Shown here: one piece after another, positions 23,476 to 39,061 of the stretch | Layout: each line of letters starts with the position of its first letter | Numbering within the stretch: position 1 is the first letter of the stretch | The notes under the pieces: model-generated | Seen by the model: only the letters and a program-made list of their open reading frames with translations | What the model was told of the DNA's origin: nothing | The model's database searches: none | Assembly: GCA_012521615.1 (NCBI GenBank) | Contig: JAAYMA010000047.1 | Span: 1 to 42,003, forward strand | Direction: 5' to 3' | Length of the DNA stretch: 42,003 nt | From: Clostridiaceae bacterium | GTDB lineage: Bacteria > Bacillota > Clostridia > DSM-8532 | Translations under genes and position numbers: made by a program

Positions 23476-24476
23476 AGCTGAATATAGGGAAAGTACCTAA
23501 TGATATATTGGAAAAACTTCTTAAAATGTATGACAGTCCGAAAAGAGCCGAAGTCATAAGCCGTCCAAACATAGGGGAGGATTGTGCTGCTTTGGATCTT
23601 GGAGGGGATTTATGCGTTGTTACCACAGATCCCATAACCGGCTCTGACGATGAAACCGGTTTTTTAGGTGTGAATATTGCCTGTAATGATCTTGCTTCAG
23701 CCGGAGCAGAACCCCTGGGATTAATGGTTACTATATTGGCACCTGTCGGGACTGATACCGGGGAACTTGAAAAAGTTATGAAGCAGCTTAAAGAAGCCTC
23801 GGAAATGGTTAATGCAGATATAATAGGCGGACATACTGAAATTACTGATGCGGTTAACCGTATGATTCTGAGTGTTACAGCCATAGGCAAGGTTAAAAAA
23901 GGCAAACTCGTTACAACAGAGGGTGCAAAACCCGGTGATGATATTATTCTTACAAATTATGCCGCAACTGAGGGAACGGTAATACTCTCATATTTTTTTG
24001 AAGATGAATTAAAAAGGGAATTTGGAAATGATTTTGTAGAAGAAAGCAAAAAGCTGTTAAGCAATATCAGTGTTGTCAAAGAAGGGTTACTGGCTGCTGA
24101 CTATGGAGTTTCGTCCATGCATGATGTAACAGAGGGCGGTGTTCTTGGTGCTCTTTGGGAAGTTGGCAGCGCAAGTGGATATGGTCTTGAAGTACATAAA
24201 GAAAAGATACCCGTTTTGGAGCATACCAGAAAAATATGCAAATTTCTCAGTATTGATCCTCTCAAACTCATATCCAGCGGCTGTATGCTTATTACTGTCC
24301 CGAATGGCAGTGGGCTTTTGAAGCTGTTTCATGAAAATAATATAAAAGCATCAATAATTGGACAAATAACCTCGGGCAAAGAATGTATAATCAAAGATGG
24401 AGACAAACATATAAAGATTGATGTACCTGAACCCGATGAACTTTATAAGGCACGTAGCATGAAGGGATTGGTTTGA
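23472..24476 (+). CDS. AIR synthase-related (PurM/HypE/ThiL-like) protein
   Basis: The 334-residue protein has the two-domain PurM-superfamily fold: N-terminal domain with IGEDCAALDLGGDLCVVTTD (nucleotide/metal Asp), CNDLASAGAEPLG and IIGGHTEIT, and C-terminal domain with GVSSMHDVTEGGVLGALWE. The family includes ATP-dependent enzymes (AIR synthase, HypE, SelD, ThiL). This member looks HypE-like, but no hydrogenase genes are near, so the substrate is unknown. The TTG start at 23472 is 10 bases from GAGGAGG and overlaps the previous stop. Its own stop shares one base with the prepilin peptidase start. Confidence 0.8.
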   Translation: MKLNIGKVPNDILEKLLKMYDSPKRAEVISRPNIGEDCAALDLGGDLCVVTTDPITGSDDETGFLGVNIACNDLASAGAEPLGLMVTILAPVGTDTGELEKVMKQLKEASEMVNADIIGGHTEITDAVNRMILSVTAIGKVKKGKLVTTEGAKPGDDIILTNYAATEGTVILSYFFEDELKREFGNDFVEESKKLLSNISVVKEGLLAADYGVSSMHDVTEGGVLGALWEVGSASGYGLEVHKEKIPVLEHTRKICKFLSIDPLKLISSGCMLITVPNGSGLLKLFHENNIKASIIGQITSGKECIIKDGDKHIKIDVPEPDELYKARSMKGLV

Positions 24477-25285
24477 TGCTTGATGCTCCTTATGTGAGTG
24501 TAAAACTATTGTTTGCAATATTGGCATTCATTACTGGATTATGTGTCGGTTCCTTTCTTAATGTCTGTATATACAGAATTCCCCGGGAAATATCAATTAT
24601 ATTTCCCCCTTCAGAATGTCCAAACTGTAGGAAAAAGATTAAAGTTACAGATTTAATCCCTGTTATCAGCTACATGATTTTAAGAGGGAAATGCAGAAAA
24701 TGCAAAAATCCCATCTCAATTCTATATCCTGTTGTGGAACTTATCACAGGCTTATTATGGCTTCTGGCTTTCCTCAAATTCGGATTTACTTTCGAAACTG
24801 TGGCCGCAATATTTCTTATTACATTACTTATCCCGGTTGCGTTTATAGACCTTGAGTTTATGATAATTCCAAATGGCCTTGTTATTACAGGTCTGATAGG
24901 AGGAACCGGTGTATTTTTGTTTCATGCATTATACAGACCGGTAATTTTTTTCGATCTGCCACTGTGGTATGCTCCCCTTATTGGCATGATTTCAGCTTCA
25001 GGTATCCTCTTTATATTTGCTTTGGTTACATACTTTATATACAAAAATGATGGCGGTATGGGTATGGGAGATGTAAAAATATTTCTTCCCATAGGTCTTA
25101 TTCTGGGTGCGAGACTTGCATTGCTTTCTCTTTTCATTTCATTCATGATTGCAGGTGTTTTGTCTGCTATTCTTCTTATACTAAAAAAACTTAACAGAAA
25201 ATCTGCTATTCCTTTTGGCCCTTTCATTGTTATTGCAACTATTCTGATCATATTTACAGGACCGGATTTAATGTTTATTTACTAA
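24476..25285 (+). CDS. pilD: Prepilin peptidase / N-methyltransferase
   Basis: The 269-residue polytopic membrane protease cleaves prepilin leaders after Gly and usually methylates the new N-terminus. The N-terminal GSFLNVCIYRIPR is followed by a zinc-binding tetra-Cys loop (CPNC and CRKC), then the GxGD aspartyl protease sites: Asp in FIDLEFMIIPN and GMGMGDVK. About eight hydrophobic segments are visible. ATG 24476 is 8 bases from GAAGGGA. It precedes the pilus operon on the same strand and would process the three FTLxE-type prepilins encoded at 34283-38996. Confidence 0.95.
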   Translation: MLDAPYVSVKLLFAILAFITGLCVGSFLNVCIYRIPREISIIFPPSECPNCRKKIKVTDLIPVISYMILRGKCRKCKNPISILYPVVELITGLLWLLAFLKFGFTFETVAAIFLITLLIPVAFIDLEFMIIPNGLVITGLIGGTGVFLFHALYRPVIFFDLPLWYAPLIGMISASGILFIFALVTYFIYKNDGGMGMGDVKIFLPIGLILGARLALLSLFISFMIAGVLSAILLILKKLNRKSAIPFGPFIVIATILIIFTGPDLMFIY

Positions 25286-25408: not shown

Positions 25409-25503
25409 ATTAATTAACTTCATTTAATTATTGACAATTAATATTAAATTTTTCCTCGAATCTTAATTATTTTGATTGAAAAATGAAAGGAAAAGTCTTT
25501 CAT

Positions 25504-25971
25504 ATGGTTAAGCAGGAAAAGTCATCAATTAAACTCTTTTTTGAGGAAAATAGATCTTTGGTTTTTCTCCTTCCTCTTTTAGCAGTACTGGTTGTTATTG
25601 CATTTATAGTTCTGTCAAAATCAAATAAGGCGTTGACAACCTCTGCAGATTTTTCGGAAGATAACCGGCTAAGCAGTGAAAATCAAGTAATAGTTTTGCC
25701 ACAGACAAATCGCGTTATTGATGAAGAATCATCTGCTGTAAAGAAAGACCCGTTTGAATCACCATTTGTGCTCACTGGAATTATTTATTCACAAGAAAGC
25801 CCTCTGGCAATCCTGGAATCAGAAAATATCTCATCCATTGTAGGAGTTGGAAGTACTGTTGGGGACAGTTCATGGAAAGTAGTTAGTATTGATAAGGATA
25901 CTGTGACACTAAGCAATGGAAGCGAAACTATTACACTGGACATTACTTCAAAAGTACATGTGCAAAATTAA
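25504..25971 (+). CDS. PilP/GspC-like pilus assembly protein
   Basis: The 155-residue protein has a short cytoplasmic tail, one membrane segment (about 21-40) and an extracytoplasmic part. The final 75 residues form a GspC-HR/PilP-like beta domain introduced by KKDPFESPFVLTGIIYS and including GVGSTVGDSSWKVVSI. In diderm systems this protein links the PilNO ring to the secretin. Here it is followed 20 bases later by a PilQ-like gene, so the same contact is likely kept. ATG 25504 is preferred over ATG 25483 because AAAGGA lies between them. The fold call rests on motif resemblance and position. Confidence 0.72.
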   Translation: MVKQEKSSIKLFFEENRSLVFLLPLLAVLVVIAFIVLSKSNKALTTSADFSEDNRLSSENQVIVLPQTNRVIDEESSAVKKDPFESPFVLTGIIYSQESPLAILESENISSIVGVGSTVGDSSWKVVSIDKDTVTLSNGSETITLDITSKVHVQN

Positions 25972-25991: not shown

Positions 25992-27395
25992 ATGAAAGCC
26001 AATAAATTTGTAGCTGGGTTGATACTTGTTCTTTTTATTATGTTACAGTTTAATTCTATTGTATTCGCCAGCGTATCAGGTTCATCAGAAAAAGAGAATA
26101 CGCTTATTACTGTTAATGTTAAAAACGCTGATATCCGTGATATTCTGTCGGCTCTGGCTGTTAAAATGGAATGTAATATTATCTATACCGATGAGCCTGT
26201 CAGAATGGATTTTTCTGTTCAGAATGTTACCTGTAAAGATGCCCTGAATATTTTATTGAAATCAGTAGGGAAGGAATATCTTGAGGATAAAAATACAATA
26301 ATAGCAGGCAGTCGTGAAGTGCTTGAAAATAATTATCTGGATAAAATTGCAATTACCAGCTTCACATTAAAGTACATACGTTCTGATATTCTGTCCTCCT
26401 TGATTGATACCCTCTCCATACCTGTAAGGAAAGTCACTCTGAGTACAAATGATAAGGTAATTTTTGTACAGGGTCTTCCAGGTGATCTTCCCAAGGTTGC
26501 TCAGCTGATTTCTTTGATTGACAGGCCGGAAAATGCTCACGCGAGCGATGATTATAATTTGTATTCTGTAACTTTAAGCCATATTACAGCAGAACAATTA
26601 AATTCAGTTCTCAATGAAATCGGGTTTTATAGTGGACTGGTTATGGAATCCAATCCTATGACCCTTTGGGTTTACGGAATAGAAGAAGATATATCAATGG
26701 TCAATGAAATAAAATCTCAGCTTGATGTGCCCCAAAACGCCATAGCCAACACTTTTATCCTGAAAAGGAAAAAACTTCGCTTTTTGACATCCGATAAAGC
26801 TGAAACAATTCTTACTGAGCTAAATATTGACGTTAATGTTCTTTCACTTAACAGAAGAATGCATACTGTCTGGCTGAATGGTACTGAAGATGCAGTTAAT
26901 TTGGCATTATCAGTTCTGGAACAATTGGATATACAGGATTATATGGAACATGACCATATAACAGTCTATAAACTCAGGAATATTACGGCGAAAGAAGCTA
27001 TGGCAAGGTTAAGGCATATAGAAAATCAGAGTAATATAAAATTTTACACATTTGCATTCCCTCAATTTGTGAAAAACGTAATGGTATTTTGCCCGCAGGA
27101 TTACAGACTGTTTGTTTTAAACCAGCTTGAAGAGATTGATGTTCCCACCGATGAAATCAAGGTACCAGTTGACTATTCTTCTGTTGCTGGAGGCAAGATT
27201 AAGCTTAAAAACAGAAGAAGTCTTATCTGTGAGCTTACAGGTCTACCAGAAGAGAAATTTACTATATCCGATAATGTTTCCCGGGATGACAGCTATCTGT
27301 TTATTATGTATCTGGAAGCATCACCTGACATTGTTCAGTATGTCAAGGATGTAATAAAAATGATAGATGATCCTTTAGCCGACGGATCGTATTAA
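25992..27395 (+). CDS. PilQ-like protein: secretin N-domains without a channel
   Basis: The 467-residue exported protein has a signal peptide (about 1-27) and an STN/N0-type domain (about 38-108, starting ITVNVKNADIRDILSALA). Four repeated secretin_N-like units follow, near 120-180, 188-250, 252-316 and 322-388, each with the T-x-x-Y/F-x-L-K start and a D-x-P or D-R-P-type end. A last beta-alpha unit covers 395-460. The C-terminal secretin beta-barrel that forms the outer-membrane pore is absent. In a cell without an outer membrane it could be a wall-zone collar or guide for the pilus. It lies between pilP-like and pilT. Confidence 0.8.
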   Translation: MKANKFVAGLILVLFIMLQFNSIVFASVSGSSEKENTLITVNVKNADIRDILSALAVKMECNIIYTDEPVRMDFSVQNVTCKDALNILLKSVGKEYLEDKNTIIAGSREVLENNYLDKIAITSFTLKYIRSDILSSLIDTLSIPVRKVTLSTNDKVIFVQGLPGDLPKVAQLISLIDRPENAHASDDYNLYSVTLSHITAEQLNSVLNEIGFYSGLVMESNPMTLWVYGIEEDISMVNEIKSQLDVPQNAIANTFILKRKKLRFLTSDKAETILTELNIDVNVLSLNRRMHTVWLNGTEDAVNLALSVLEQLDIQDYMEHDHITVYKLRNITAKEAMARLRHIENQSNIKFYTFAFPQFVKNVMVFCPQDYRLFVLNQLEEIDVPTDEIKVPVDYSSVAGGKIKLKNRRSLICELTGLPEEKFTISDNVSRDDSYLFIMYLEASPDIVQYVKDVIKMIDDPLADGSY

Positions 27396-27419
27396 AAAAA
27401 GATAGGGATGCAGGTTGAT

Positions 27420-28520
27420 ATGAGATTTCAAAATATTGAACCTTCTTATGTTTACAGCATTGACGATTTACTGAGGATATGCGTAGAAAGGGAAGGGTCG
27501 GATCTTCATCTTGTTGCAGGCACCCCTCCATGTATAAGAGTCAATGGAGAAATTATCCGGTTAGATGCTCCTTCATTGAGTGATACTGACATGGAAGGGC
27601 TGATAATACCTATCCTTAAGGATTACCAAAGACTAAACCTGGAAAAGGATTACGAACTGGATTTTTCATACTCTATCCCCGGCTGTGCCCGGTTCCGCGG
27701 TAACATAATGTTTCAGCGCGGAACGCTTGCAGCAGCTTTCAGGGCAGTACCGTTTACCATACCTGATTTTGAAGAGCTCGGTCTTCCTGAAGACATTAAA
27801 AGGTTATGCACTCTTCCACGCGGTTTAATACTTGTAACAGGACCCACCGGAAGCGGAAAATCAACTACTCTTGCAGCAATGATTGATATTATAAACAGCA
27901 CAAGGGCCTGTAACATAGTCACTATTGAAGATCCTATCGAGTTTTTGCACAAACATAAAAAATCTACTGTCCGGCAAAGGGAGCTTGGAAACGACACCCA
28001 CAGCTTTTCAGCAGCCCTGCGCCATGTACTTCGCCATGATCCGGACGTTATCATGATAGGTGAGATGCGTGATACCGAAAGCATTGCTATAGCTTTGACT
28101 GCAGCAGAAACAGGACATCTGGTATTATCGACCCTGCATACTCAGACAGCACCTTTGACAATTACAAGAATTATAGATTCTTTCAGCAGTGAAAAAAGGA
28201 TGCAGGTAAGGCAGCAATTGGCCAACTCTTTAAGAGCCGTTATATCACAAACGCTTGTACCTGATATAGAAGGTAAAGGCAGAATAGCTGCAGTCGAATA
28301 TATGGTTGACACGCCTGCCATCAGGAGTATGATACGTGATGGAAAAGAACATCAGATTTACTCTGCTATTCAGACAGGACACAGTTATGGTATGCAGACG
28401 CTGGATCAGGCACTAATAAAACTGTATTCTGCAAATAAAATCAGTAAAAAATCTGTCCTTGAACGCTGCATTGATCGTGCAGAAGTTGAGAGATATCTAC
28501 AGAACAGATTCTTTCTATAA
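27420..28520 (+). CDS. pilT: Pilus retraction ATPase PilT
   Basis: The 366-residue hexameric ATPase depolymerises the pilus for twitching and DNA uptake. The N-terminal PAS-like domain contains SDLHL, Walker A GPTGSGKST is at 141-149, and the Asp box (TIEDPIEF), Walker B (VIMIGEMRD) and His box (HLVLSTLHTQ) follow. The C-terminal PAIRSMIRDGK corresponds to the AIRNLIRE motif diagnostic of retraction ATPases. ATG 27420 is preferred; ATG 27408 has its purine run only two bases away. It sits in the operon, 24 bases after the PilQ-like gene. Confidence 0.95.
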   Translation: MRFQNIEPSYVYSIDDLLRICVEREGSDLHLVAGTPPCIRVNGEIIRLDAPSLSDTDMEGLIIPILKDYQRLNLEKDYELDFSYSIPGCARFRGNIMFQRGTLAAAFRAVPFTIPDFEELGLPEDIKRLCTLPRGLILVTGPTGSGKSTTLAAMIDIINSTRACNIVTIEDPIEFLHKHKKSTVRQRELGNDTHSFSAALRHVLRHDPDVIMIGEMRDTESIAIALTAAETGHLVLSTLHTQTAPLTITRIIDSFSSEKRMQVRQQLANSLRAVISQTLVPDIEGKGRIAAVEYMVDTPAIRSMIRDGKEHQIYSAIQTGHSYGMQTLDQALIKLYSANKISKKSVLERCIDRAEVERYLQNRFFL

Positions 28521-28543
28521 ATAGCATGAAGGGTGATAATCCC

Positions 28544-29755
28544 ATGGCATATTATAGCTATGAGTGCCTGGACAAAAATGGTCAATTAATCAATGGTCAA
28601 ATTTCAGCAGAAGGTATCAGCCAGGCAGTGGATAAGCTGAAAAGAATGGGCTTATCAGTCATTGATTTAAAAGAGAATAAACCAAAAAAGAAAAGCAGCT
28701 TTTTCTCGAACGAAAAAAAGCCAACAATTACTGACTTGGCACTTTTCAGCCGCCAGCTGGCTGCAATGCTTGCAGCTGGTATACCTGTTACACGTGCACT
28801 TTTAACACTTTCACAGCAGGCAGAGAATAAAATGCTGAAAGAAGCGTTGGAAACTATTCACAGCAATGTAGAAGGCGGTATGAATCTTACAGAGGCCTTC
28901 AGCCTCTACCCGCATATCTTCAATGATTTGTACATATCAATGATAAATGCGGGCGAGACAGGAGGCATGTTGGAAACTTCACTTTTGAGATTATCGGAGC
29001 AGCTTCAGAAGGAAAAAGTTCTGAGGGACGAGGTAAAGTCGGCCATATCTTATCCAAGAACAATAGCAATATTTGCGCTTGTAATGTTTGTTGCAATGGT
29101 AGTTTTTCTTGTGCCTGTTTTCCAGAAATTTATCCCTGAAACATCCGATATTCCGGCAATAACGCAGCTTATATTCAACCTTTCAGCATCCTGGAGAAAT
29201 TACTATTACATATGGATAGCTGCAATTACCGCAATAGTGTCGGGATTTATTCTTTTTGCAAAAAGTAAAACTGGTCGCGATCTATGGGAGAAAAACAAGT
29301 TCAGGATGCCTGTATTTGGAATGTTACTGCTGAAGACAGTTATAGCACGTTTTACCCGCACTTTGTCAACTTTATTGCGGGGCGGTATTACTGTCGTACA
29401 GGCACTTGAAAGTGCCGGACCTACTTCAGGGAGTGCGCTTGTATCCGAAACAGTCAAAAAAACCGTTCAGGGAATTGAGGAAGGCAGAAGTATAGCATCA
29501 ACTTTCGAGCAAAGCGGCTTATTCCCGCCCATGGTGACTCAGATGGTAGCTGTAGGTGAAGAGTCGGGTACCCTTCCTGAACTGCTGGAGAAAATTGCGG
29601 AGTTTTATGAACAGGAAGTTCAAACTACTACCAAAGGACTTCAGGCTTTAATCCAGCCCATAGCAATAATTGTTATCGGTTTGCTTGTCGGCGGAATGCT
29701 GGTAGCACTTTATTTGCCTATATTTACTACCGTTTCTTCGTCAGGAGGTATATAG
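28544..29755 (+). CDS. pilC: Inner-membrane platform protein PilC
   Basis: The 403-residue GspF/PilC protein has two repeated cytoplasmic helical domains (about 60-165 and 265-370), each followed by membrane segments (near 165-190, 210-240 and 370-395). Typical motifs are FSRQLAAMLAAGIP, INAGETGG and FTRTLSTLLRGGI, MVAVGEESG in the second copy. It is the rotor on which PilB and PilT act. ATG 28544 follows AAGGGTGAT by about 7 bases; ATG 28526 has no site. Its stop lies one base before the sigma-factor start. Confidence 0.95.
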   Translation: MAYYSYECLDKNGQLINGQISAEGISQAVDKLKRMGLSVIDLKENKPKKKSSFFSNEKKPTITDLALFSRQLAAMLAAGIPVTRALLTLSQQAENKMLKEALETIHSNVEGGMNLTEAFSLYPHIFNDLYISMINAGETGGMLETSLLRLSEQLQKEKVLRDEVKSAISYPRTIAIFALVMFVAMVVFLVPVFQKFIPETSDIPAITQLIFNLSASWRNYYYIWIAAITAIVSGFILFAKSKTGRDLWEKNKFRMPVFGMLLLKTVIARFTRTLSTLLRGGITVVQALESAGPTSGSALVSETVKKTVQGIEEGRSIASTFEQSGLFPPMVTQMVAVGEESGTLPELLEKIAEFYEQEVQTTTKGLQALIQPIAIIVIGLLVGGMLVALYLPIFTTVSSSGGI

Positions 29756-29756
29756 C

Positions 29757-30461
29757 GTGTCGACATTTAACGCCAGGATTAATGAGGCATATAGCAAATA
29801 TATTGCTGAACCAACTGAAAGTAATCTGGCTGAGCTTTTTAATGCTTCAACTCCGTTAATTGAATATTTAGCATATACCTTAAGCGGCGGGATGCTTTAT
29901 GAAGATACAGTTCAGGCCGGGTATGAAGGTGTAATGAAGGCCTTAAAGCGTTATGACAAAAACATGAACACTTTTGCTACTTATGCCACTCACTGTATTA
30001 TGGGTGAGATAAGGCATCATATAAGAAGGGAGATGAAATACTACAAGCCCGGATTCATAGACAATCTGCAGAAAAAAGTTGCAGATTATATTGAAGAATA
30101 CTATGAAAATACTTCTGAACTGCCGTCCGAAACAAATATATCTGAAAAGTTAAACATCAGAAAAGAAGGAATATATGAAATATTAAAGGCAGGTCTGGTT
30201 TCTATTGATCAGCTTAATCTGGACAAAGTAGGATGCATCAGATATGAGAGTTTTAAACTTCCCATCGAAGATAAGATAGTTTTGTACGAGGCAATTCAGA
30301 AGTTGAGCGAAATAAAGAAAAAAGTGATTTACAGTTTGTTTTTCAAAAATAAAACTCAGCAGCAAACAGCAGACATACTTGGTATAAATCAGCGAAAGGT
30401 ATCCAGATTGCTGAAAAGCAGCCTGGTAGACTTAAGGAATATCTTATTAGAAAAGGTTTAG
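29757..30461 (+). CDS. Sigma-70 family RNA polymerase sigma factor inside the pilus operon
   Basis: The 234-residue group-3-like sigma factor has region 2 at about 25-95, including GYEGVMKALKRYDKNMNTFA and GEIRHHIRRE as in SigB/SigF/SigG relatives. A region-3-like segment covers about 97-150 (SETNISEKLNIRKEGIYEIL), and region 4 about 172-230 with the helix-turn-helix QQQTADILGINQRKVSRLLK. All parts needed to bind core polymerase and promoters are there. GTG 29757 is 8 bases after AGGAGG and one base after the pilC stop, so it is translated with the pilus genes. No anti-sigma gene is nearby. Target promoters are unknown. Confidence 0.88.
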   Translation: MSTFNARINEAYSKYIAEPTESNLAELFNASTPLIEYLAYTLSGGMLYEDTVQAGYEGVMKALKRYDKNMNTFATYATHCIMGEIRHHIRREMKYYKPGFIDNLQKKVADYIEEYYENTSELPSETNISEKLNIRKEGIYEILKAGLVSIDQLNLDKVGCIRYESFKLPIEDKIVLYEAIQKLSEIKKKVIYSLFFKNKTQQQTADILGINQRKVSRLLKSSLVDLRNILLEKV

Positions 30462-30470
30462 AGGGTAAGT

Positions 30471-31415
30471 ATGGGTTTATTCAAGAAAAGTATAATCGGT
30501 TTGGAAATGGATTCGAAAGAAATACGTACTGTAGAAATTTCAGGCAGTAAAAAAAATCCGGTAATTTCCGCATGGGGCAGGATTGAGCTTGCGGATGGTG
30601 CAGTCAAAGAAGGAAAGGTTGCCGATACGGATATTTTGTCTGAAAATATAGCAAAACTTATGGAGTTGAAAGGCTTCAAGGACAAAAATGTTGTCCTTGG
30701 CGTAAACAACCAGGATATTATAGTAAGATTTGCAACTTTTCCGAAAGTTCCTGACGACAAAATCAGGAACATGGTGATGCTTCAGGCTGAAGATTATATT
30801 CCCGTACCTATGACCGAACTTGAAATAGACTACATAATTACAGGTGAAAGAGAATCTGAAGGAAGACAATTCATTAATGTAATTCTTGTAGGTGCAAGAA
30901 AGAAAATGATTAACGATTATATCAAATGTATAGAAAGTGTTGGTCTGAATGTAGTTGAAATTGATTCCACAATGCTGGCAATAGCTCGTTCTGCATTGAT
31001 TTACAGCGATACCGGCACTTTTGCTGCTGTCGGATATAATCATGATATCGGAAATATTATGATTTTCAGGGATGGAATATTAGAATTTGCCAGAACAATA
31101 TCCATGGACTCTGAAGAAAATCAGCCTGAACCGGAGGCTGACCTCATATCAGATATTCTGTTAAATGAAATCCGATCATCTGTTAATTATTATCTTAGTC
31201 AAAACTTTGCAGAGATTAATAAAATCTTTCTCTGTGGAGTTAACATAAGTCAGAAAACTGTCGCGTCGAAGATACAAAATTTTACCGGCATTCAGGTTGA
31301 AATTCCCGATCCTTACAAGTCCTACAAAATAACCGGAACACATGCCGGATCGGGTTTCAATGCCAGTGATTTCAATGCATGCATAAGTCTTGCTCTCAGA
31401 GGAATGGAGGAATAA
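30471..31415 (+). CDS. pilM: Actin-like pilus assembly protein PilM
   Basis: The 314-residue cytoplasmic protein has the actin/FtsA-like ATPase fold used by PilM: phosphate-1 region IIGLEMDSKEIRTVEIS near 8-24, VDI-like MQAEDYIPVP segment, IDSTMLAIAR near 165 and FLCGVNISQ near 258. PilM binds the cytoplasmic N-terminus of PilN and links the membrane platform to the motor ATPases. It starts 9 bases after the sigma-factor gene and one base before pilN. Confidence 0.92.
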   Translation: MGLFKKSIIGLEMDSKEIRTVEISGSKKNPVISAWGRIELADGAVKEGKVADTDILSENIAKLMELKGFKDKNVVLGVNNQDIIVRFATFPKVPDDKIRNMVMLQAEDYIPVPMTELEIDYIITGERESEGRQFINVILVGARKKMINDYIKCIESVGLNVVEIDSTMLAIARSALIYSDTGTFAAVGYNHDIGNIMIFRDGILEFARTISMDSEENQPEPEADLISDILLNEIRSSVNYYLSQNFAEINKIFLCGVNISQKTVASKIQNFTGIQVEIPDPYKSYKITGTHAGSGFNASDFNACISLALRGMEE

Positions 31416-31416
31416 A

Positions 31417-31992
31417 ATGTACAAAGTAAGCCTACTGCCGAATCATTACATACTTCAAAATCAGGCGCGTAAAAGAAAGGATAAATTACTCAAAATATCA
31501 TTAGTTGTCATGTGTACCTTATTTGCTGTATACGCCGCTTCGGTCATACTTCACACTGCCGTAAAAAATGAATTCAGGACTTTACAGAAAGAAAATAAGA
31601 GGGTTTTGGAGGAAATATCAGAACTGGAATATCTCTCTGCTCTGAACAATGATATCAATGCCATATATAACCGGGCAAAAACGGCTGTCGGAAATAATCC
31701 TGACTGGAATAAGCTCATTGTGGATATTGGTAATAGCACTCCTGAAACCATAGGTATTACCAATATGGAACTAAGCTATGAAGGCGGAAACGGAACAGGC
31801 AAGATAAAGGGGCTGGCTCTTGATCACAGTACAGTTTCAGCCTGGCTTGAAACACTTAATGAATTAATTGAAATAACTGATGTGAGATGCTCTTTTTTGA
31901 CACAAACTCAGGAAAGTGCTGATGATTTAGTCCAATTTGAAATAACCATGAAATTAAGACCAGGTTCAGGATATATGATTACCCGGAGGTAA
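31417..31992 (+). CDS. pilN: PilN platform protein
   Basis: The 191-residue bitopic protein has the short cytoplasmic motif KVSLLPNHYI, a version of the I-N-L-L-P PilM-binding tail. One membrane segment lies near 25-46, a coiled-coil-like stretch about 48-80, and an extracytoplasmic ferredoxin-like domain to the end. It pairs with PilO and PilP. ATG 31417 lies 6 bases after GGAGG; the longer frame from 31390 overlaps pilM and is not used. Confidence 0.9.
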   Translation: MYKVSLLPNHYILQNQARKRKDKLLKISLVVMCTLFAVYAASVILHTAVKNEFRTLQKENKRVLEEISELEYLSALNNDINAIYNRAKTAVGNNPDWNKLIVDIGNSTPETIGITNMELSYEGGNGTGKIKGLALDHSTVSAWLETLNELIEITDVRCSFLTQTQESADDLVQFEITMKLRPGSGYMITRR

Positions 31993-31998
31993 TTGTTA

Positions 31999-32523
31999 AT
32001 GAAAAAAGTCAACCGAACTGATACGGGAGCACTGCTGATTGTTTTGTCGGCAATAATGTGTATCCTTCTTGTTACATTAAGTGTTATGAATTTTGTAAAT
32101 ACAAAAAAACTGAATGAGAATATCCGGCATGAGACCGTTGCTTTGAAGAATAACTATGACAGACTTGATTTCCTTAAGAAGTTGAGAAACCTTCAACCTG
32201 AACTGGAATATACGCTGGAGCTATTAAAAAAACAGATACCATCAAGCCCGGAGGATTACAAAATTATTGAACTCATAAAGGAATATTCATCCGAAAACTC
32301 TTCAGATTTTGTCAGGATTGAGTTTGGTGAATATAGGAATGAATCAGAAATAAATTCAATACCTGTTACACTTACCTTTATGGGAAGATACTCCAATTTA
32401 TTAAAGCTGATTAATGAGATTATGTCAGGTGACAGGCTCTTTAGAATTGACAGAATCAAGATTGACAAAGCAGATGGTTCAAAAATCAGGGCGGATATAG
32501 AAGCTTTTGCTTTCTATAATTGA
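31999..32523 (+). CDS. pilO: PilO platform protein
   Basis: The 174-residue bitopic protein has a membrane segment near 9-32, a coiled coil about 33-80 (ending LLKKQIPSSPEDY, the family's typical L-P-x-x-x-E turn), and a ferredoxin-like domain with VTLTFMGRYSNLLKLINEI. PilO forms heterodimers with PilN under the pilus. ATG 31999 is 9 bases after GGAGG; TTG 31993 is too close. It is six bases downstream of pilN. Confidence 0.9.
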   Translation: MKKVNRTDTGALLIVLSAIMCILLVTLSVMNFVNTKKLNENIRHETVALKNNYDRLDFLKKLRNLQPELEYTLELLKKQIPSSPEDYKIIELIKEYSSENSSDFVRIEFGEYRNESEINSIPVTLTFMGRYSNLLKLINEIMSGDRLFRIDRIKIDKADGSKIRADIEAFAFYN

Positions 32524-32544: not shown

Positions 32545-34248
32545 ATGATGGGGTTCATTAAAGGCGCAGGTTTTCTTGGGGAACAACTTGTCAAGATGGG
32601 AATACTGACTGAAGAGCCAATCAAGGAAGCCCTCTCCATACAGAAAGAAAAGAAAAAAAAGGGAGAGAATAAAAAGCTTGGGCAGATTCTGATTGAACTG
32701 GGTTATTGCAATGAAAAACATATAGGAGAAGCTCTTGCCCGAAAAAGTGGTTACAAGTTTTTATCCATGAACAGTACCGAAGTTGATGTTACATATGCTA
32801 ACCTGATAACACCTGAAATAGCACAAAAATATAAGGTAATGCCTACGGGAATGAAAAATGGCAAGCTTCAGGTAGCAATGCTGAACCCCAATGATATCAT
32901 TGCCATAGATGATCTCAAAATCCTCACAGGTTATGAAATAGAACCCATTGTTGTCCCTGATAATGAATTGAAAGCAGTTATAGAACAGTTTACAAACAGC
33001 AGCAGAAATCTGGAAAGCTTTGATGAGGAAGAGCAAGAAACAGAAGAAGCTGAACACGAAGATCTGGTAGCCAGTGCAGATGATAAACCTGCTGTTTTGC
33101 TGGTAAATCAGATTATTAACCATGCTGTTAGCTCTGGTGCAAGTGATATACATGTAGAGCCTCAGGAAAAATATCTCAGAGTCCGGTTCAGAATAGACGG
33201 GGTTCTGCACGAGATTATGCAACAGCCTTTAAGGCTTCATCCAATGGTCGCATCAAGAATAAAAGTTATGGCAGGTATGGATATTGCCGAAAGGCGTGTT
33301 CCTCAAGATGGACGTATAAGCGTAAAATCTGAAGGAAATTTAATTGATATACGTGTGGCATCCCTTCCTTCAGCGTATGGAGAAAAAATTACAATGCGCC
33401 TTCTTAACCGGAGCAGCCGGATTATAACTTTAGAACAGCTGGGTTTTCCTGAATTTCAGCTAAAAAGGTACAGAGAGATAATGAGGCTTCCCTATGGATT
33501 TATTTTGATAACCGGACCTACAGGCAGCGGCAAGAGTACAACGTTATATGCCACACTACAGGTTCTCAACTCTGTTGAGAAAAATATTATCACACTGGAA
33601 GATCCTATTGAAAGAAGGATGGAAGGGATAAACCAGATTCAGATGAATGCAAAAGCTGGTATGACCTTTGCTTCCGGATTGAGATCAATCCTAAGAAGCG
33701 ATCCCGACATTATTATGGTAGGTGAAATAAGGGATCGTGAAACAGCTCAGATTGCTGTAGAATCAGCCTTGACCGGACATCTGGTTCTTTCTACACTGCA
33801 CACCAATGATGCACCCGGGGCGGTAACAAGGCTCGGAGAGATGGGAATTGAACCATTTCTTACAGCCTCATCCCTGGTGGGAGTAGTAGCTCAGCGTCTT
33901 GCCAGGGTGCTTTGTCCCAAGTGCAAGATACCCTATACACTGACCAGGGATGAACTAATGTATTCAGTACAGGGCTTTCCACTGGAGCCTCACGAAGATT
34001 CTATTACTTTATATAAACCGGCAGGGTGCATTGCCTGTAATAAAACAGGCTACAAAGGCAGAACAGGTATTTTTGAATTCCTGAAAGTGACTGAAACTAT
34101 TCAAAAATTGATCTTGAGTGGTGCCTCCACCAATGAGATCAGAGAAGCTGCAATCAAGGAAGGTATGGCAACTTTGAGGCAGGATGGACTTGTGAAAGTC
34201 AAAAACGGAATTACATCCATCGAGGAAATTCTGAGAGTTGTGATGTAA
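32545..34248 (+). CDS. pilB: Pilus extension ATPase PilB
   Basis: The 567-residue GspE/PilB ATPase drives pilus assembly. The N-terminal T2SSE_N/MshEN-like domain covers about 5-150, including LGQILIELGYCNEKHIGEAL. An acidic hinge follows (158-172). The ATPase has SGASDIHVEPQ, Walker A GPTGSGKST (324-332), Asp box TLEDPIE, Walker B DIIMVGEIRDRET and His box HLVLSTLHTNDAP. A zinc-binding tetra-Cys element (CPKC and CIAC) follows. N-domains of this type can bind c-di-GMP in some species; I cannot confirm this here. ATG 32545 and 32548 are both possible starts. Confidence 0.95.
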   Translation: MMGFIKGAGFLGEQLVKMGILTEEPIKEALSIQKEKKKKGENKKLGQILIELGYCNEKHIGEALARKSGYKFLSMNSTEVDVTYANLITPEIAQKYKVMPTGMKNGKLQVAMLNPNDIIAIDDLKILTGYEIEPIVVPDNELKAVIEQFTNSSRNLESFDEEEQETEEAEHEDLVASADDKPAVLLVNQIINHAVSSGASDIHVEPQEKYLRVRFRIDGVLHEIMQQPLRLHPMVASRIKVMAGMDIAERRVPQDGRISVKSEGNLIDIRVASLPSAYGEKITMRLLNRSSRIITLEQLGFPEFQLKRYREIMRLPYGFILITGPTGSGKSTTLYATLQVLNSVEKNIITLEDPIERRMEGINQIQMNAKAGMTFASGLRSILRSDPDIIMVGEIRDRETAQIAVESALTGHLVLSTLHTNDAPGAVTRLGEMGIEPFLTASSLVGVVAQRLARVLCPKCKIPYTLTRDELMYSVQGFPLEPHEDSITLYKPAGCIACNKTGYKGRTGIFEFLKVTETIQKLILSGASTNEIREAAIKEGMATLRQDGLVKVKNGITSIEEILRVVM

Positions 34249-34282
34249 TACCTGAGCATGTATTGGAAACGTGGTGATTAGA

Positions 34283-36439
34283 GTGATCAGGATTAATTCC
34301 AAATCCGATAAAGGTTTTACACTTGTAGAACTCCTGGTAGCCGTAACCATTCTGGTAATAGCTGCTGCCGCATTCTTACCTGTTCTCACTTTGGTTGCAC
34401 GTTCCAATAATCAGAACAAAATCAGAGCCACTGCAGGCGCCATTGCGGCAGGTATATATGAAGAAATAAGCGGAATGGATTTTGATAAAATTGATGAGAT
34501 AGGAAATGACAAGACAGATAATACTCAGGCTGAAAGTCCGCCGGGAGTCACCTACAAAACCTGGAAGGAGACAATTGATGACACAACATACAATGTTGAA
34601 GTCTTAATTACCTGGGGGATTACCGAGGATGCAAGCGGCGAAGAAGTTTCATTGTCGCATAAGAATGTAAGGGTTATTGTAAGTGCAGTCAATACATTTA
34701 CCGGAAAAGAGGAAGTGGTTGATAAAGTATATTCAATTGTGGCTAAAGAAGGCGGTCAAACAATGCCTGATGCAGGAAATATGAGAGTAACTGTAAAACA
34801 GGCATATGGGCTGGGGCATGAATTTCCTGTTTTCAACATTAAATGTAGCGGACCTGAAACTTTTACCATGCGTACCGATGAAGCAGGGCAGGTAATTTTC
34901 GGGGAAATCAAAAAAGGTACGTATAGGGTATCTACATCTATTCCTTCAGGCTGGAGTATACCTCAGGGCTATGAGGTGAACGGCAATACGGTCAGTATAT
35001 CTGATATTCCCATTACAGAATGGAAAGTAAAAGATGTTTATTTCTATATGGACAAACCAGAAAAATTTTGTAACCTTACTGCTGTAGTTGTGGACGAAAA
35101 CGGTGAAGTAATTAACACTCATGGGAAAATGACTCTTACCTGGGAGATTGATGGACAGACCAGGGTTGTTTTTAAAGATAAGGAACTTACAGGAGGAAAT
35201 TTAGATATTAATTTTTTCGGAAAGCTGTGGCCTTTGGGTAAATATAACATAAAGATTGATTTTCCTGCTGATTCCAGGTACAGAAATTATGACATGACTG
35301 AGGATAATGCTTTTATAGAGAACACTTCTGAAATCTGGTCCGGAACTTTTAATAATTTTGGGGAGAGATTAAGTATTCTGATCCCTCTAAAATCAGACTT
35401 TTCAGGTCCAACAACTCTGGACGCATTTTCAAGAATAGAAGCCGAGGATACCAACGATATAAATGGATCTGTCATTACAGAGGACTGTACAGATAGAAAT
35501 GGCGGAAAAAATTTAAGAATTAATGGAAATGGTGGCTATGTAATTTATAAAAATATCAGTTTTGGAAATGATTTACCTTATACATTCCAGGCAAGAGTTG
35601 CGGCGACAGGCAGCCAAAGCAGTAAAATTAGAATTAAACTACGCGATCAAAATGGACCTGTATTAGGAACCTTATACATAACACCAACAGGTTCATTGAA
35701 CAGATACAAAACTGTTACTTGTGTTATTGCCATTCAGAAATCTGTTCAGAATGCCATTGACCGCAATGAAACAGTGGACATCTGTCTGGATTTTGAAGCA
35801 GATCATGAACTTAATCTTAACTGGTTTAAATTCTCCAAGGTTCTTGATGATTTTAATCGCAGCAGTGTTGGAAGTGAATGGAAAAGCAACAGAGGGAATT
35901 GGACAATAGAAAATGGTATATTAAAACAGACATCTACAGGAAGTAATCTTCGACAACTTGTTTTGAACAAGGATGGGTTTGATAATAACTCGTGCTACTC
36001 CATTGTTTGTAAAGTAAAAGTGGACTTCTGGAGGGGTGAATTACTCAATACTCCCCGTGCCGGCATTAGTCTGTTTTCAGATTCGCATAACAGTGGCTAT
36101 GGTCTGACTTATGATGAAGAAATCACTATAGACTGGAGAAACCTGAATCTGATAAAACAAAAGCGCATGGGAATTATTGGAGAAAATTCTGAAATTTACC
36201 TGAAGGATTATGACTGGGATAATAATTGGTACTGGTTCATGCTAAGCAGTTACAAAATCGGCAGCAAGACAGTTTTTGAAGGTAAGATATGGAAATTTGG
36301 CGAAGTGGAGCCTGACTGGATGTTCTTCCATGAAGTCAATAATACAAATTTGACCGGTTATCCCTCACTATTCACCATTAGAAATTGTACAGCCTCTTTT
36401 GATGATATTTCTGTCATTAATAACGACAGTACAGAATAG
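34283..36439 (+). CDS. Giant prepilin with CBM6-like carbohydrate-binding module
   Basis: The 718-residue protein begins with an 11-residue leader and a class III prepilin site, DKG before FTLVELLVAVTIL, with Glu5 intact. A PilV/GspI-like pilin domain runs to about 160. Two prealbumin/CnaB-like beta domains follow (about 167-225 and 262-335). Residues 380-518 match CBM6: AFSRIEAEDTND, GGYVIYKNISFG, FQARVA, GPVLGTLYITPTG and the closing LNLNWFKF, whose Asn is the family's sugar-contact position. Residues 521-712 form another beta-sandwich (DDFNRSSVGSEW, NWTIENGILKQTS), like LamG/CBM66-type modules. The CBM should be displayed on the pilus. GTG 34283 follows GGTGAT; GTG 34271 is the longer alternative. 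Confidence 0.88.
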   Translation: MIRINSKSDKGFTLVELLVAVTILVIAAAAFLPVLTLVARSNNQNKIRATAGAIAAGIYEEISGMDFDKIDEIGNDKTDNTQAESPPGVTYKTWKETIDDTTYNVEVLITWGITEDASGEEVSLSHKNVRVIVSAVNTFTGKEEVVDKVYSIVAKEGGQTMPDAGNMRVTVKQAYGLGHEFPVFNIKCSGPETFTMRTDEAGQVIFGEIKKGTYRVSTSIPSGWSIPQGYEVNGNTVSISDIPITEWKVKDVYFYMDKPEKFCNLTAVVVDENGEVINTHGKMTLTWEIDGQTRVVFKDKELTGGNLDINFFGKLWPLGKYNIKIDFPADSRYRNYDMTEDNAFIENTSEIWSGTFNNFGERLSILIPLKSDFSGPTTLDAFSRIEAEDTNDINGSVITEDCTDRNGGKNLRINGNGGYVIYKNISFGNDLPYTFQARVAATGSQSSKIRIKLRDQNGPVLGTLYITPTGSLNRYKTVTCVIAIQKSVQNAIDRNETVDICLDFEADHELNLNWFKFSKVLDDFNRSSVGSEWKSNRGNWTIENGILKQTSTGSNLRQLVLNKDGFDNNSCYSIVCKVKVDFWRGELLNTPRAGISLFSDSHNSGYGLTYDEEITIDWRNLNLIKQKRMGIIGENSEIYLKDYDWDNNWYWFMLSSYKIGSKTVFEGKIWKFGEVEPDWMFFHEVNNTNLTGYPSLFTIRNCTASFDDISVINNDSTE

Positions 36440-36447
36440 GAGTGCAT

Positions 36448-37047
36448 ATGAAGAATAATAAAGGTTTTACGTTGATTGAACTGGTGGTTGTGCTTTCTCT
36501 CTTAGGAATAGTCCTTGCCGGAGTTTTAACTTTCCTGGGCTATTTTCTTGGTGTTTTTGGTGATACAAAAGCCAGGACAATTGTTCAGGATGATGTTAAC
36601 AATGTGCTCAGAATACTGGCAAACGATATCCGTTCAGCCACAAAACCCGATTTGACATACAAAAGTATTGTTATATATAAAGCAAATGATGAAAGCCATA
36701 AAGGCGACAGAATAGACATATTTGATTACAAAAACAACAAGTATTATCTTATAAGCTATAAATATGAAAATAATGTTCTCTACAGGGGGATCACCGACGC
36801 AGAAACTGCCGACCATATTGTGAAAGCCACAGTGAAATATTCTGTTCTGCTTGAAGGAATAATTCATCCATCAGAAAGTGAACTATTTGAAACAGATAGT
36901 GAAATATTTGAGGATCTTACATCTGATCCGAAAAGCGACAGACGGACCATAAAAATAAATCTGATTGCAAAGGATAAAGAGGGCAAAATCAAAAAGCCTG
37001 TTGTGATATCAGCCACTTACACTTCCAGGTCGAAAGGCGCACCATAA
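36448..37047 (+). CDS. PilW/GspJ-like pseudopilin
   Basis: The 199-residue prepilin has leader MKNNKG before FTLIELVVVLSLLGIVLAG, with Glu5 present. Its aliphatic helix leads to a beta-rich head of about 150 residues (ILANDIRSATKP near 50, YRGITDAE near 112). Size and pattern fit GspJ/PilW minor pilins that prime assembly with GspI- and GspK-like partners, here the genes on either side. ATG 36448 follows TAGGAG by 5 bases. Confidence 0.85.
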   Translation: MKNNKGFTLIELVVVLSLLGIVLAGVLTFLGYFLGVFGDTKARTIVQDDVNNVLRILANDIRSATKPDLTYKSIVIYKANDESHKGDRIDIFDYKNNKYYLISYKYENNVLYRGITDAETADHIVKATVKYSVLLEGIIHPSESELFETDSEIFEDLTSDPKSDRRTIKINLIAKDKEGKIKKPVVISATYTSRSKGAP

Positions 37048-37059
37048 GGAGGTGGAATT

Positions 37060-38577
37060 GTGAAGAAGCTTCTGAAAAATAACAATGGAGCGGCAATAGT
37101 AACAGTAGTATTTATTATTGCTGTTGTTTTCCTGCTCTGCGTTGCTTTAATAAATTTCAATGACAGTCACACAAAAAATGTTTTACTTTCAGGACAGATT
37201 GAGGATGCGCTTCAGATTGCTGAAGCCGGGTATAATCACTTTATGTCTTACCTTTATATGGACTCGGAATTCTATAAGAGCTCCGAGGGTATTTCAAATC
37301 CCGGTCCTGCTGGTGAAGAATTGGGGTTTGTTCCCATAGATACAGATTCTGCAGGTTATCATGTATATAAAATTATTACATATCGTTCAGGGAACAATAT
37401 TATCGGCCATTATCAAGTCAGGGTAAAACCTCCTTCGGTAAATGAGGACCTGACGCTTATTTCTACAGGTTGGACTGACCAAGATCCTGAAATAAAAAAA
37501 TCTGTAAAAGTGAAATTACATAAAAGATCATTTACAGAATATGTGGATTTCACCCAAAGCTCCGGTACGGGAAATAATACTGTATATTGGACAACCGACG
37601 ACGTAGCTTACGGTCCTGTCTTTTGTAACGGTGATATTTTTGTAAAAGGCTTTCCCATCTTCATGGATAATGTATATACGGCAGGAAAAGTAGTTGAAGA
37701 ATCAGGTGAAGCCAAGATATTGGGAAAAAAATATGAAAACGTTGAACCTGCAATGTTTCCTGTAACTAATTCTGAAATAAAGAACTGGGCAGAAAATGGC
37801 GGCATTTATCTTGAAGGAAGAACATGTATTTTTATAGATGGTACAAAACTTTACATCAGAAACAATCATGAAGAATACAAAGATGAGCTTCTTGAACGGG
37901 ATTTGCCTAAAACAGGTGTTGTATATGTTAAAGGTAAAGTTTTTATTTCCGGAATACTTGATGGCAAACTAACAGTATATGCCACTGATGATATTTATAT
38001 AACTGGTAAAAATCCTACAGAAAAAAATGGGTGGAATAATCCAAGGAATGCAACAATGACAGGTTCCATTACGGTTGACGGTTATAATTACAATATTGGC
38101 ATCGGGTATCAAAATACTAATATTCCTCTGGATAGAAACGCAACAGGAAGTAATTATTCAGATGATATGCTGGGACTGATATCCGAGAAAAACATTATAA
38201 TCGCCACAAAAACCTGGCCATATGATAACCTGCAGGGGTACCGCAGCAACCACAATTACAACAATGTAATGGTACCGGAAATGATAATATATGGTGCCGT
38301 TATGTCAACCGGAGGTCAATTCATGGTGGAGGACTTCGATAAGGCACCTGTAAAAGGCAGATTAAGTGTATATGGCTCCAAAATACAAAATTCTTCGAGA
38401 GGAGCAGTAGGAACTTTTGATGAGCGTACTTTCAGAATAATATCAGGGTACAACAAGCAGGACAGATTTGATTATAGGTTTAAAACCATGTCTCCACCTC
38501 ACTTTGTTGAACCTGCCAATTCGGGATGGGAGATAAGGTCATGGGAAGAGATTCCCAATCCAAAGATAATTCAATAA
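37060..38577 (+). CDS. Large PilX/GspK-like tip-type protein (DUF4900-like)
   Basis: The 505-residue protein starts NNNGAAIVTVVFIIAVV, a GspK/PilX-type N-terminal helix that lacks Glu5, as expected for the tip-capping subunit. The head is mostly beta, with a right-handed-helix look between about 175 and 430 (GVVYVKGKVFISGILDGKL, VYATDDIYITG, LGLISEKNIIIAT). The ending SSRGAVGTF, FDYRF, PPHF and SWEEI is known from large minor pilins in thermophile and clostridial loci. Function beyond pilus assembly is unknown. GTG 37060 lies 5-6 bases after GGAGGTG. Confidence 0.8.
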   Translation: MKKLLKNNNGAAIVTVVFIIAVVFLLCVALINFNDSHTKNVLLSGQIEDALQIAEAGYNHFMSYLYMDSEFYKSSEGISNPGPAGEELGFVPIDTDSAGYHVYKIITYRSGNNIIGHYQVRVKPPSVNEDLTLISTGWTDQDPEIKKSVKVKLHKRSFTEYVDFTQSSGTGNNTVYWTTDDVAYGPVFCNGDIFVKGFPIFMDNVYTAGKVVEESGEAKILGKKYENVEPAMFPVTNSEIKNWAENGGIYLEGRTCIFIDGTKLYIRNNHEEYKDELLERDLPKTGVVYVKGKVFISGILDGKLTVYATDDIYITGKNPTEKNGWNNPRNATMTGSITVDGYNYNIGIGYQNTNIPLDRNATGSNYSDDMLGLISEKNIIIATKTWPYDNLQGYRSNHNYNNVMVPEMIIYGAVMSTGGQFMVEDFDKAPVKGRLSVYGSKIQNSSRGAVGTFDERTFRIISGYNKQDRFDYRFKTMSPPHFVEPANSGWEIRSWEEIPNPKIIQ

Positions 38578-38619: not shown

Positions 38620-38654
38620 GTATATGAATGAAATTTTTCAAGGAGGGTCAAATT

Positions 38655-38996
38655 ATGTTAAAATTCTTAAAAAGTAAAAAAGGTTTTACACTTGTCGAAC
38701 TTTTAGTTGTTGTGGTAATCATAGGAATACTGGTTGCCATAGCAATACCGGTCTATAACGACATAACTCACAGTACTAAAAAAAGGGCTTGTGAAGCCAA
38801 TATCAGAATGATCAAAAGTGCTATTCAACAATATAAAGTAGCCAATCCAAATGCAAATAGTGTGACCATGGATAATTTAAAAGGTTATTTTGAAGATAAT
38901 AAAATAGAATGTCCTTTTGGAGTAGCATATACAATTGATGAAAATGGTCAAGTAGACGAAGACGCCCATAAGGAAGACGCCCATAAGCACGAATAA
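38655..38996 (+). CDS. pilA: PilA-like major type IV pilin
   Basis: The 113-residue prepilin has leader MLKFLKSKKG before FTLVELLVVVVIIGILVAIA, with Glu5 present, and a small head with two Cys (46 and 86) that may form a disulfide. This matches the short pilins of Firmicutes. The C-terminus is unusual: EDAHK occurs twice in tandem, then HE, giving an exposed His/acid tail. AGGAGGG lies 7 bases before ATG 38655, so the ATG at 38628 is not used. Being last, with its own promoter and the strongest ribosome site, it is the likely major pilin. Confidence 0.9.
   Translation: MLKFLKSKKGFTLVELLVVVVIIGILVAIAIPVYNDITHSTKKRACEANIRMIKSAIQQYKVANPNANSVTMDNLKGYFEDNKIECPFGVAYTIDENGQVDEDAHKEDAHKHE
38958..38987 (+). 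repeat. Perfect 15-bp tandem duplication in pilA
   Basis: The units 38958-38972 and 38973-38987 are identical (GAAGACGCCCATAAG) and in frame, encoding EDAHK twice. It looks like a recent in-frame duplication at the 3' end of the pilin gene, which could vary in copy number. Confidence 0.9.
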
Positions 38997-39022
38997 ATCA
39001 AACAGCATGAAAACCGTAGTTT

Positions 39023-39061
39023 AACTGGCAGGTATATAATGATATCTGCCAGTTGTTTTTT
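39023..39061 (+). terminator. Terminator of the pilus operon
   Basis: A 13-bp stem (39023-39035 with 39042-39054, one G-U), a 6-base loop and G followed by six T. It is a strong intrinsic terminator placed 27 bases after the pilA stop. Confidence 0.92.

Follow-up and report, generated by a model that had tools for sequence, protein, structure and literature searches.

A type IV prepilin carrying a CBM6-family module and a predicted concanavalin A-type domain in a clostridial pilus operon

The pilus operon and the modular pilin gene

The window, as the whole analysed stretch of 42,003 nucleotides from a Clostridiaceae bacterium is called here, contains a complete pilus operon on its forward strand. 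The genes and signals assigned to it are the following:

24473..25285, +, prepilin peptidase PilD (A24_N_bact 123.6 bits, Peptidase_A24 42.7 bits)
27408..28520, +, PilT retraction ATPase (TIGR01420 465 bits, cut-off 319)
28526..29755, +, PilC platform protein (T2SSF 203.6 bits)
30471..31415, +, PilM (PilM_2 90.7 bits, above cut-off)
31390..31992, +, PilN (PilN 28.8 bits, above cut-off)
31993..32523, +, PilO (PilO 41.7 bits, above cut-off)
32545..34248, +, PilB extension ATPase (T2SSE 464.9 bits, MshEN 51.7 bits)
34283..36439, +, modular minor prepilin in a PilV/GspI-like operon slot, 718 aa from GTG 34283
36442..37047, +, minor pilin in a GspJ/PilW-like slot, with FTLIE (PF07963 38.5 bits)
37060..38577, +, large protein of 505 aa in a PilX/GspK slot, with a pilin-like N-terminus (NNNG/AAIVT, slash at the cleavage position) that lacks Glu5
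38628..38996, +, probable major pilin, ComGC/GspG-like (PF07963 36.1 bits; NF040999 53.4 bits, below cut-off)
39022..39055, +, terminator-like hairpin, a 14-pair stem followed by TTTTTT (pattern match only)

The modular pilin gene is located after pilB and before two pilin-like genes and the probable major pilin gene. This order would read as I-like, J-like, K-like and major pilin, and such an I/J/K-like set suggests that the modular pilin belongs to the tip complex. Minor-pilin tip complexes are capped by a subunit without Glu5 (PMC10191384), and the 505-aa protein is probably the tip-capping subunit. No family scores above cut-off for it, while a relative at the same slot matches PilX_N weakly. 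The hairpin probably marks the end of the operon.

Two further sets of genes were observed in this region. A weak GspC-like gene (25483-25971) adjoins a gene for a secretin-like protein (25992-27395, +) with STN and Secretin_N, resembling the N-terminal part of GspD/PilQ, in which Pfam finds no secretin pore domain. The host looks like a monoderm clostridium, and the secretin-like gene is also present in relatives (L029, L030, L032). Between pilC and pilM, inside the operon, lies a gene for a sigma factor of the SigB/F/G type (29757-30461, +; below the SigBFG cut-off). It is present in G010, the same-genus genome described below, and absent from this position in G003, G027 and G029; among the genomes compared, its occurrence thus coincides with that of the CBM6 pilin.

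The open frame of the modular pilin (34271-36439, +) has no internal stop and would encode 722 aa from an upstream GTG at 34271, from which all residue numbers are counted here. The GTG at 34283 is preferred as the start because the ortholog begins at the same residue; it is also the start given in a preliminary description made from the sequence alone. Repeats within the gene are limited to short two-copy matches. The protein can be divided into the following parts:

34283..34375, +, class III leader MIRINSKSDKG/FTLVE and onset of the alpha1 helix (PF07963 and TIGR02532 above cut-off)
34316..34756, +, pilin module, residues 16-162 (low-confidence model secondary structure; sub-threshold NCBIfam matches)
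34769..35062, +, first CnaB-like stalk domain, residues 167-264 (SdrD_B below cut-off with 19-21 bits; model match)
35063..35404, +, probable second CnaB/Ig-like stalk domain, residues 265-378 (weak tandem model match)
35438..35839, +, CBM6-family module, residues 390-523 (PF03422; in CtCBM6 numbering, Ile for Tyr34 and Leu for Trp92, with Asn120 retained)
35837..36436, +, C-terminal concanavalin A-type lectin/CBM66-like beta-sandwich, residues 523-722 (AlphaFold2 model and fold matches)

The leader has both Gly-1 and Glu+5. It matches N_methyl (PF07963) with 30.8 bits (cut-off 21.2) and TIGR02532 with 26.7 bits, also above cut-off, which bears out the FTLVE-type prepilin leader of the preliminary description. 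That account was likewise right about the CBM6 module; it overlooked the stalk (residues 163-378) and the C-terminal 200 residues. The NCBIfam scores of the pilin module all fall below cut-off (ComGE 26.2, PilV 24.0 and GspI 19.7 bits), and at low confidence it is modelled as a long N-terminal helix followed by beta strands.

A full-length ortholog with 55% identity and an identical gene order was found in the same-genus genome G010. This genome corresponds to GenBank JAAYLX010000020 (Clostridiaceae bacterium isolate AS20ysBPTH_124) and was the one case in which a search of other genomes returned the same prepilin-CBM order. Of two contig scans, the first gave no match and the second gave this ortholog together with one Teredinibacter CBM6. 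Since the leader and CBM6 scores, the complete operon and the second genome with the same fusion agree, the fusion is real, and misassembly or a chance fusion is ruled out.

Stalk and head domains

A probable CnaB-like (prealbumin-like) stalk of one or two domains spans residues 163-378, between the pilin module and the CBM6 module. The full-length model, built from an alignment of two sequences, is poor (pLDDT 50), so that its use was restricted to those parts of the stalk with strong matches. In this model, the first stalk domain (segment 167-263) superposes on UafA, SdrD and CnaB domains with Z 9.0-11.4. The tandem match of residues 163-378 to SdrD B1-B2, a TIE protein and sortase pilins is weak (Z 8.6-9.9, rmsd 4-22 Å). 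SdrD_B and SpaA remain below cut-off in the window protein; in a relative, CarboxypepD_reg, SpaA and SdrD_B are all above it.

The CBM6 module is firmly assigned. PF03422 scores 69.8 bits (E 3.5e-19, cut-off 28.9) on the window protein and 58.5 bits on the ortholog. Independently, phmmer matches solved CBM6 structures, namely 2V4V (E 9.8e-14), 1UY1 and 1GMM, with E values ranging from 1e-13 to 3e-12. The limits proposed earlier for the module, 35420-35836, were correct to within a few codons. In the full-length model the module has a pLDDT of about 25-50. No relative of it was found in viral collections, and the plasmids searched gave generic CBM6 matches only, at 27-32% identity.

In CtCBM6, cleft A grips the sugar via Tyr34, Trp92 and Asn120 (PMC10284105). 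At these positions Ile, Leu and Asn are found in the window protein, the last one kept within LNLNWF, and Asn, a gap and Lys (LKVNWF) in the ortholog. Loss of the sugar contacts is thus partial in the former, where both aromatics are gone and Asn120 is kept, and complete in the latter. Among 16 other distinct CBM6 domains, aromatics occupy both places in 14 and the Asn is present in 15. The HhXyn5A CBM6 lost the same three residues, and its cleft is gone in a homology model (PMC10284105). On these residues, binding of plant fibre through cleft A was rejected. Loss of the cleft A residues is not proof of non-binding, because BT0996-C, which is CBM6/35-like and has lost the signature residues, binds polygalacturonate via charge (PMC9843283).

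The preliminary description had suggested plant xylan, cellulose or beta-glucan as what the module binds, so that the pilus would draw the cell onto plant fibre. Firm CBM6 membership, the Asn120 kept in the window protein, the xylanase modules among the closest solved relatives and the presence of PilT are all in line with this proposal, which is nevertheless improbable given the two lost aromatics, the still more altered ortholog, the vanished cleft of HhXyn5A and the carbohydrate inventory of the genome. This inventory covers three families, CBM6, GH5 and GH43. It comprises one GH5 match, no GH43 in an assembly that is 99.94% complete, and no CBM6-bearing enzyme. CBM6 occurs elsewhere in the genome only as two copies in one SLH-type surface protein. 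For the three families tested, this weakens a role in plant-fibre attachment, and plant fibre as the target was not borne out. What stands of the polysaccharide-binding pilus subunit described earlier is a CBM6-family pilin in a complete pilus operon; xylan, cellulose or beta-glucan binding is not supported by the cleft A residues.

The SLH-type protein (contig 62, L033 6337-8512, minus strand) has SLH-type repeats recognized by eye and is truncated where the contig ends. In its intact CBM6 copy, the Tyr, Trp and Asn of cleft A are all present.

The C-terminal domain has no Pfam family. When residues 523-722 were folded alone with the ortholog (AlphaFold2), an all-beta model was obtained with a pLDDT of 73.9 and a pTM of 0.77. 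The model matches the lectin domain of galactocerebrosidase (3zr5, Z 17.0), the C-terminal domain of GH43 xylosidases (Z 16.9), CBM66 (4azz, Z 16.7, rmsd 2.7 for 156 residues) and numerous legume lectins (Z 15-16), the rmsd being mostly 2.6-3.7 Å across 153-185 residues. Foldseek also ranked lectin-type folds high, and weak profile matches to the C-terminal tails of Pfam 3-keto-disaccharide hydrolase-like (3keto-disac_hyd) enzymes point in the same direction. By predicted fold, the domain is a concanavalin A-type jelly-roll. As neither a Pfam match nor a relevant PDB sequence match is available, it is labelled a CBM66-like fold and not a CBM66. PDB sequence matches to AVR-Pik and to a scaffold were taken as chance (E 0.08 or worse). 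Viral and phage collections held no relative of this domain. Long stretches are identical between the orthologs, NTNLTGxPSLFT and NCTASFDDISVINNDSTE, which suggests constraint.

A putative tip adhesin among known modular pilins

A pilin with a CBM6 module, encoded inside an operon with PilB, PilT, PilC, PilM, PilN, PilO and the peptidase, is most naturally read as a pilus-borne, carbohydrate-related subunit. We propose, with a probability of roughly two in three, that the protein is a modular minor type IV pilin serving as a tip adhesin with lectin-type heads. The prepilin peptidase would cleave it between Gly and Phe, and its pilin module, of the I type, would become part of the minor-pilin tip complex alongside the J-like and the Glu5-less K-like neighbours. 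The CnaB-like stalk would raise the CBM6-type and concanavalin A-type beta-sandwiches off the filament. At the tip, both heads may adhere to a glycan or to some other surface ligand, and retraction by PilT could pull on what is bound. Since the CBM6 module is without the two-aromatic cleft A, contact is more likely to be made by the C-terminal lectin-like domain or by a different face of the CBM6 module.

Pilus-locus adhesion occurs in anaerobic Clostridia, as with the tapirins and the cellulose-binding pilin of Ruminococcus albus. The tapirins are not pilins, and their fold is unrelated.

Modular pilins were described in 2021 as a class of more than 1,200 proteins in 264 architectures, and carbohydrate-binding modules are among the domains that some of them carry (PMC8179133). 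Like the window protein, those with PF13620 or Laminin_G_3 (PF13385) combine a class III leader with a domain that is not pilus-specific, and the relatives of the window stalk score as PF13620. One member of the class, PilB of S. sanguinis, carries a vWA adhesin module (PMC8179133). Closer in anatomy is PilC of S. sanguinis, which combines a pilin with an Ig-like domain and a lectin of the concanavalin A type; it binds glycans and is modelled at the pilus tip (PMC9934059). Shared with the window protein are the N-terminal pilin, the Ig-like part, the C-terminal concanavalin A-type lectin, the monoderm pilus and a pil locus with other minor pilins. The likeness is one of anatomy, as PilC has no CBM6 and a different stalk, and its glycan ligands have been measured.

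The other similar modules are parts of enzymes. The xylanase CBM6 of Acetivibrio (Clostridium) thermocellum (1GMM/1UXX) is of the same sequence family, but its two binding aromatics are missing here. Bacillus CBM66 (4azz) shares the predicted fold of the C-terminal domain, whose sugar-contact residues are not mappable at 14% identity. HhXyn5A (PMC10284105) and the lysine-rich BT0996-C (PMC9843283) have a CBM6-type fold that has lost the Tyr/Trp/Asn signature.

The earlier statement that no pilin with this domain order had been described is supported only in part. A pilin-CBM6 fusion in this exact order was not found in the literature searched, which covered the main text of PMC8179133, where 'CBM' has 0 occurrences; Dataset S1 of that paper may list CBM6. 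Pilins with grafted carbohydrate-binding modules, including a lectin pilin, were already established (PMC8179133, PMC9934059), and the novelty would be the combination of modules within this known class. If the heads bind glycans, anaerobic Clostridia would have a pilus-tip adhesin made up of CBM and lectin parts otherwise associated with enzymes. A CBM family name is no guide to the substrate once the binding residues are gone.

Variable heads on a shared pilin and stalk

A profile of the pilin and stalk matches five of the 32 genomes of the family, and the relative in G009 is cut off by a contig end. In G029 and G027, which represent two other genera, the same pilin and stalk are located directly after pilB and bear an F5/8 type C head. 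Samples of about 400 genomes each from the class and the phylum yielded further relatives, ending in more prealbumin-like repeats or unnamed segments, and some of them also sit just after pilB. Across these few genomes the pattern is one of a conserved carrier and a variable head; an exchange of heads may lie behind it.

A broader proposal is put forward tentatively: a Bacillota-wide pilus 'socket', in which a conserved pilin and CnaB-like stalk near pilB would have their heads swapped between genera. The heads concerned would be CBM6 with the concanavalin A-type domain, F5/8 type C, repeats and others, with adjacency to pilB in several relatives. Here, CBM6 may have been recast for a ligand outside cleft A and paired with the lectin domain to set the grip of the pilus. 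If the heads do bind glycans, one pilin-stalk carrier would be reused with interchangeable heads, and pilus specificity might be readable from sequence and open to testing on the heads in isolation.

This variability bears on the kind of ligand. A narrower form of the tip-adhesin reading is that the glycans bound by the heads belong to other cells or to the matrix of the cell itself, in biofilm or aggregation, and are not food polysaccharide. It is a possibility of somewhat less than even odds. A head that varies among related genera on a constant pilin and stalk is expected for a surface-recognition part. The CBM6 cleft is remodelled with its fold kept, the glycan-binding pilin PilC recognises host glycans, and BT0996-C binds a charged polysaccharide despite its lost signature. 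The CBM6 module is, however, not strongly charged, unlike BT0996-C, its calculated pI being 5.8 in the window protein and 7.8 in the ortholog.

The CBM6-like and lectin-like domains could also be structural bulk, a spacer or a protein-protein element capping the pilus tip, with adhesion being incidental. Of the five segments, CBM6 shows the lowest identity between the orthologs (48.5% versus 54-69%) and its canonical site is lost in both, the ortholog having no canonical contact at all, so that it may be a mere spacer. The related carrier in G752 has further prealbumin-like repeats as its head and no lectin. The constraint suggested by the identical C-terminal stretches speaks for more than bulk, and bulk alone would hardly account for two adjacent, independent lectin-type modules, which makes this explanation rather unlikely, although less so than attachment to plant fibre.

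In other species of the family without the carrier, the slot holds other oversized pilins (G013, G026, G007 and G003) or only small ones. The minor-pilin cluster of G026 (L053 3153-5381, minus strand) encodes a 742-aa prepilin that has BNR-like repeats together with an inserted segment resembling Laminin_G_3 (sub-threshold). That of G013 (L035 4249-6018, minus strand) encodes a 589-aa prepilin, propeller-like by eye, for which Pfam matches nothing beyond N_methyl. J-slot pilins of 964 aa with FN3 and an SWM-like repeat (G007, L037 3657-6551, minus strand) and of 799 aa (G003, L034 7736-10135, plus strand) each have a region that resembles concanavalin A by eye, where Pfam has no match. In G004 and G019, a second PilT-like ATPase, also recognized by eye, is encoded on the opposite strand between the minor and major pilin genes:

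L049 2508-3608, -, second PilT-like ATPase gene
L050 2524-3594, -, second PilT-like ATPase gene
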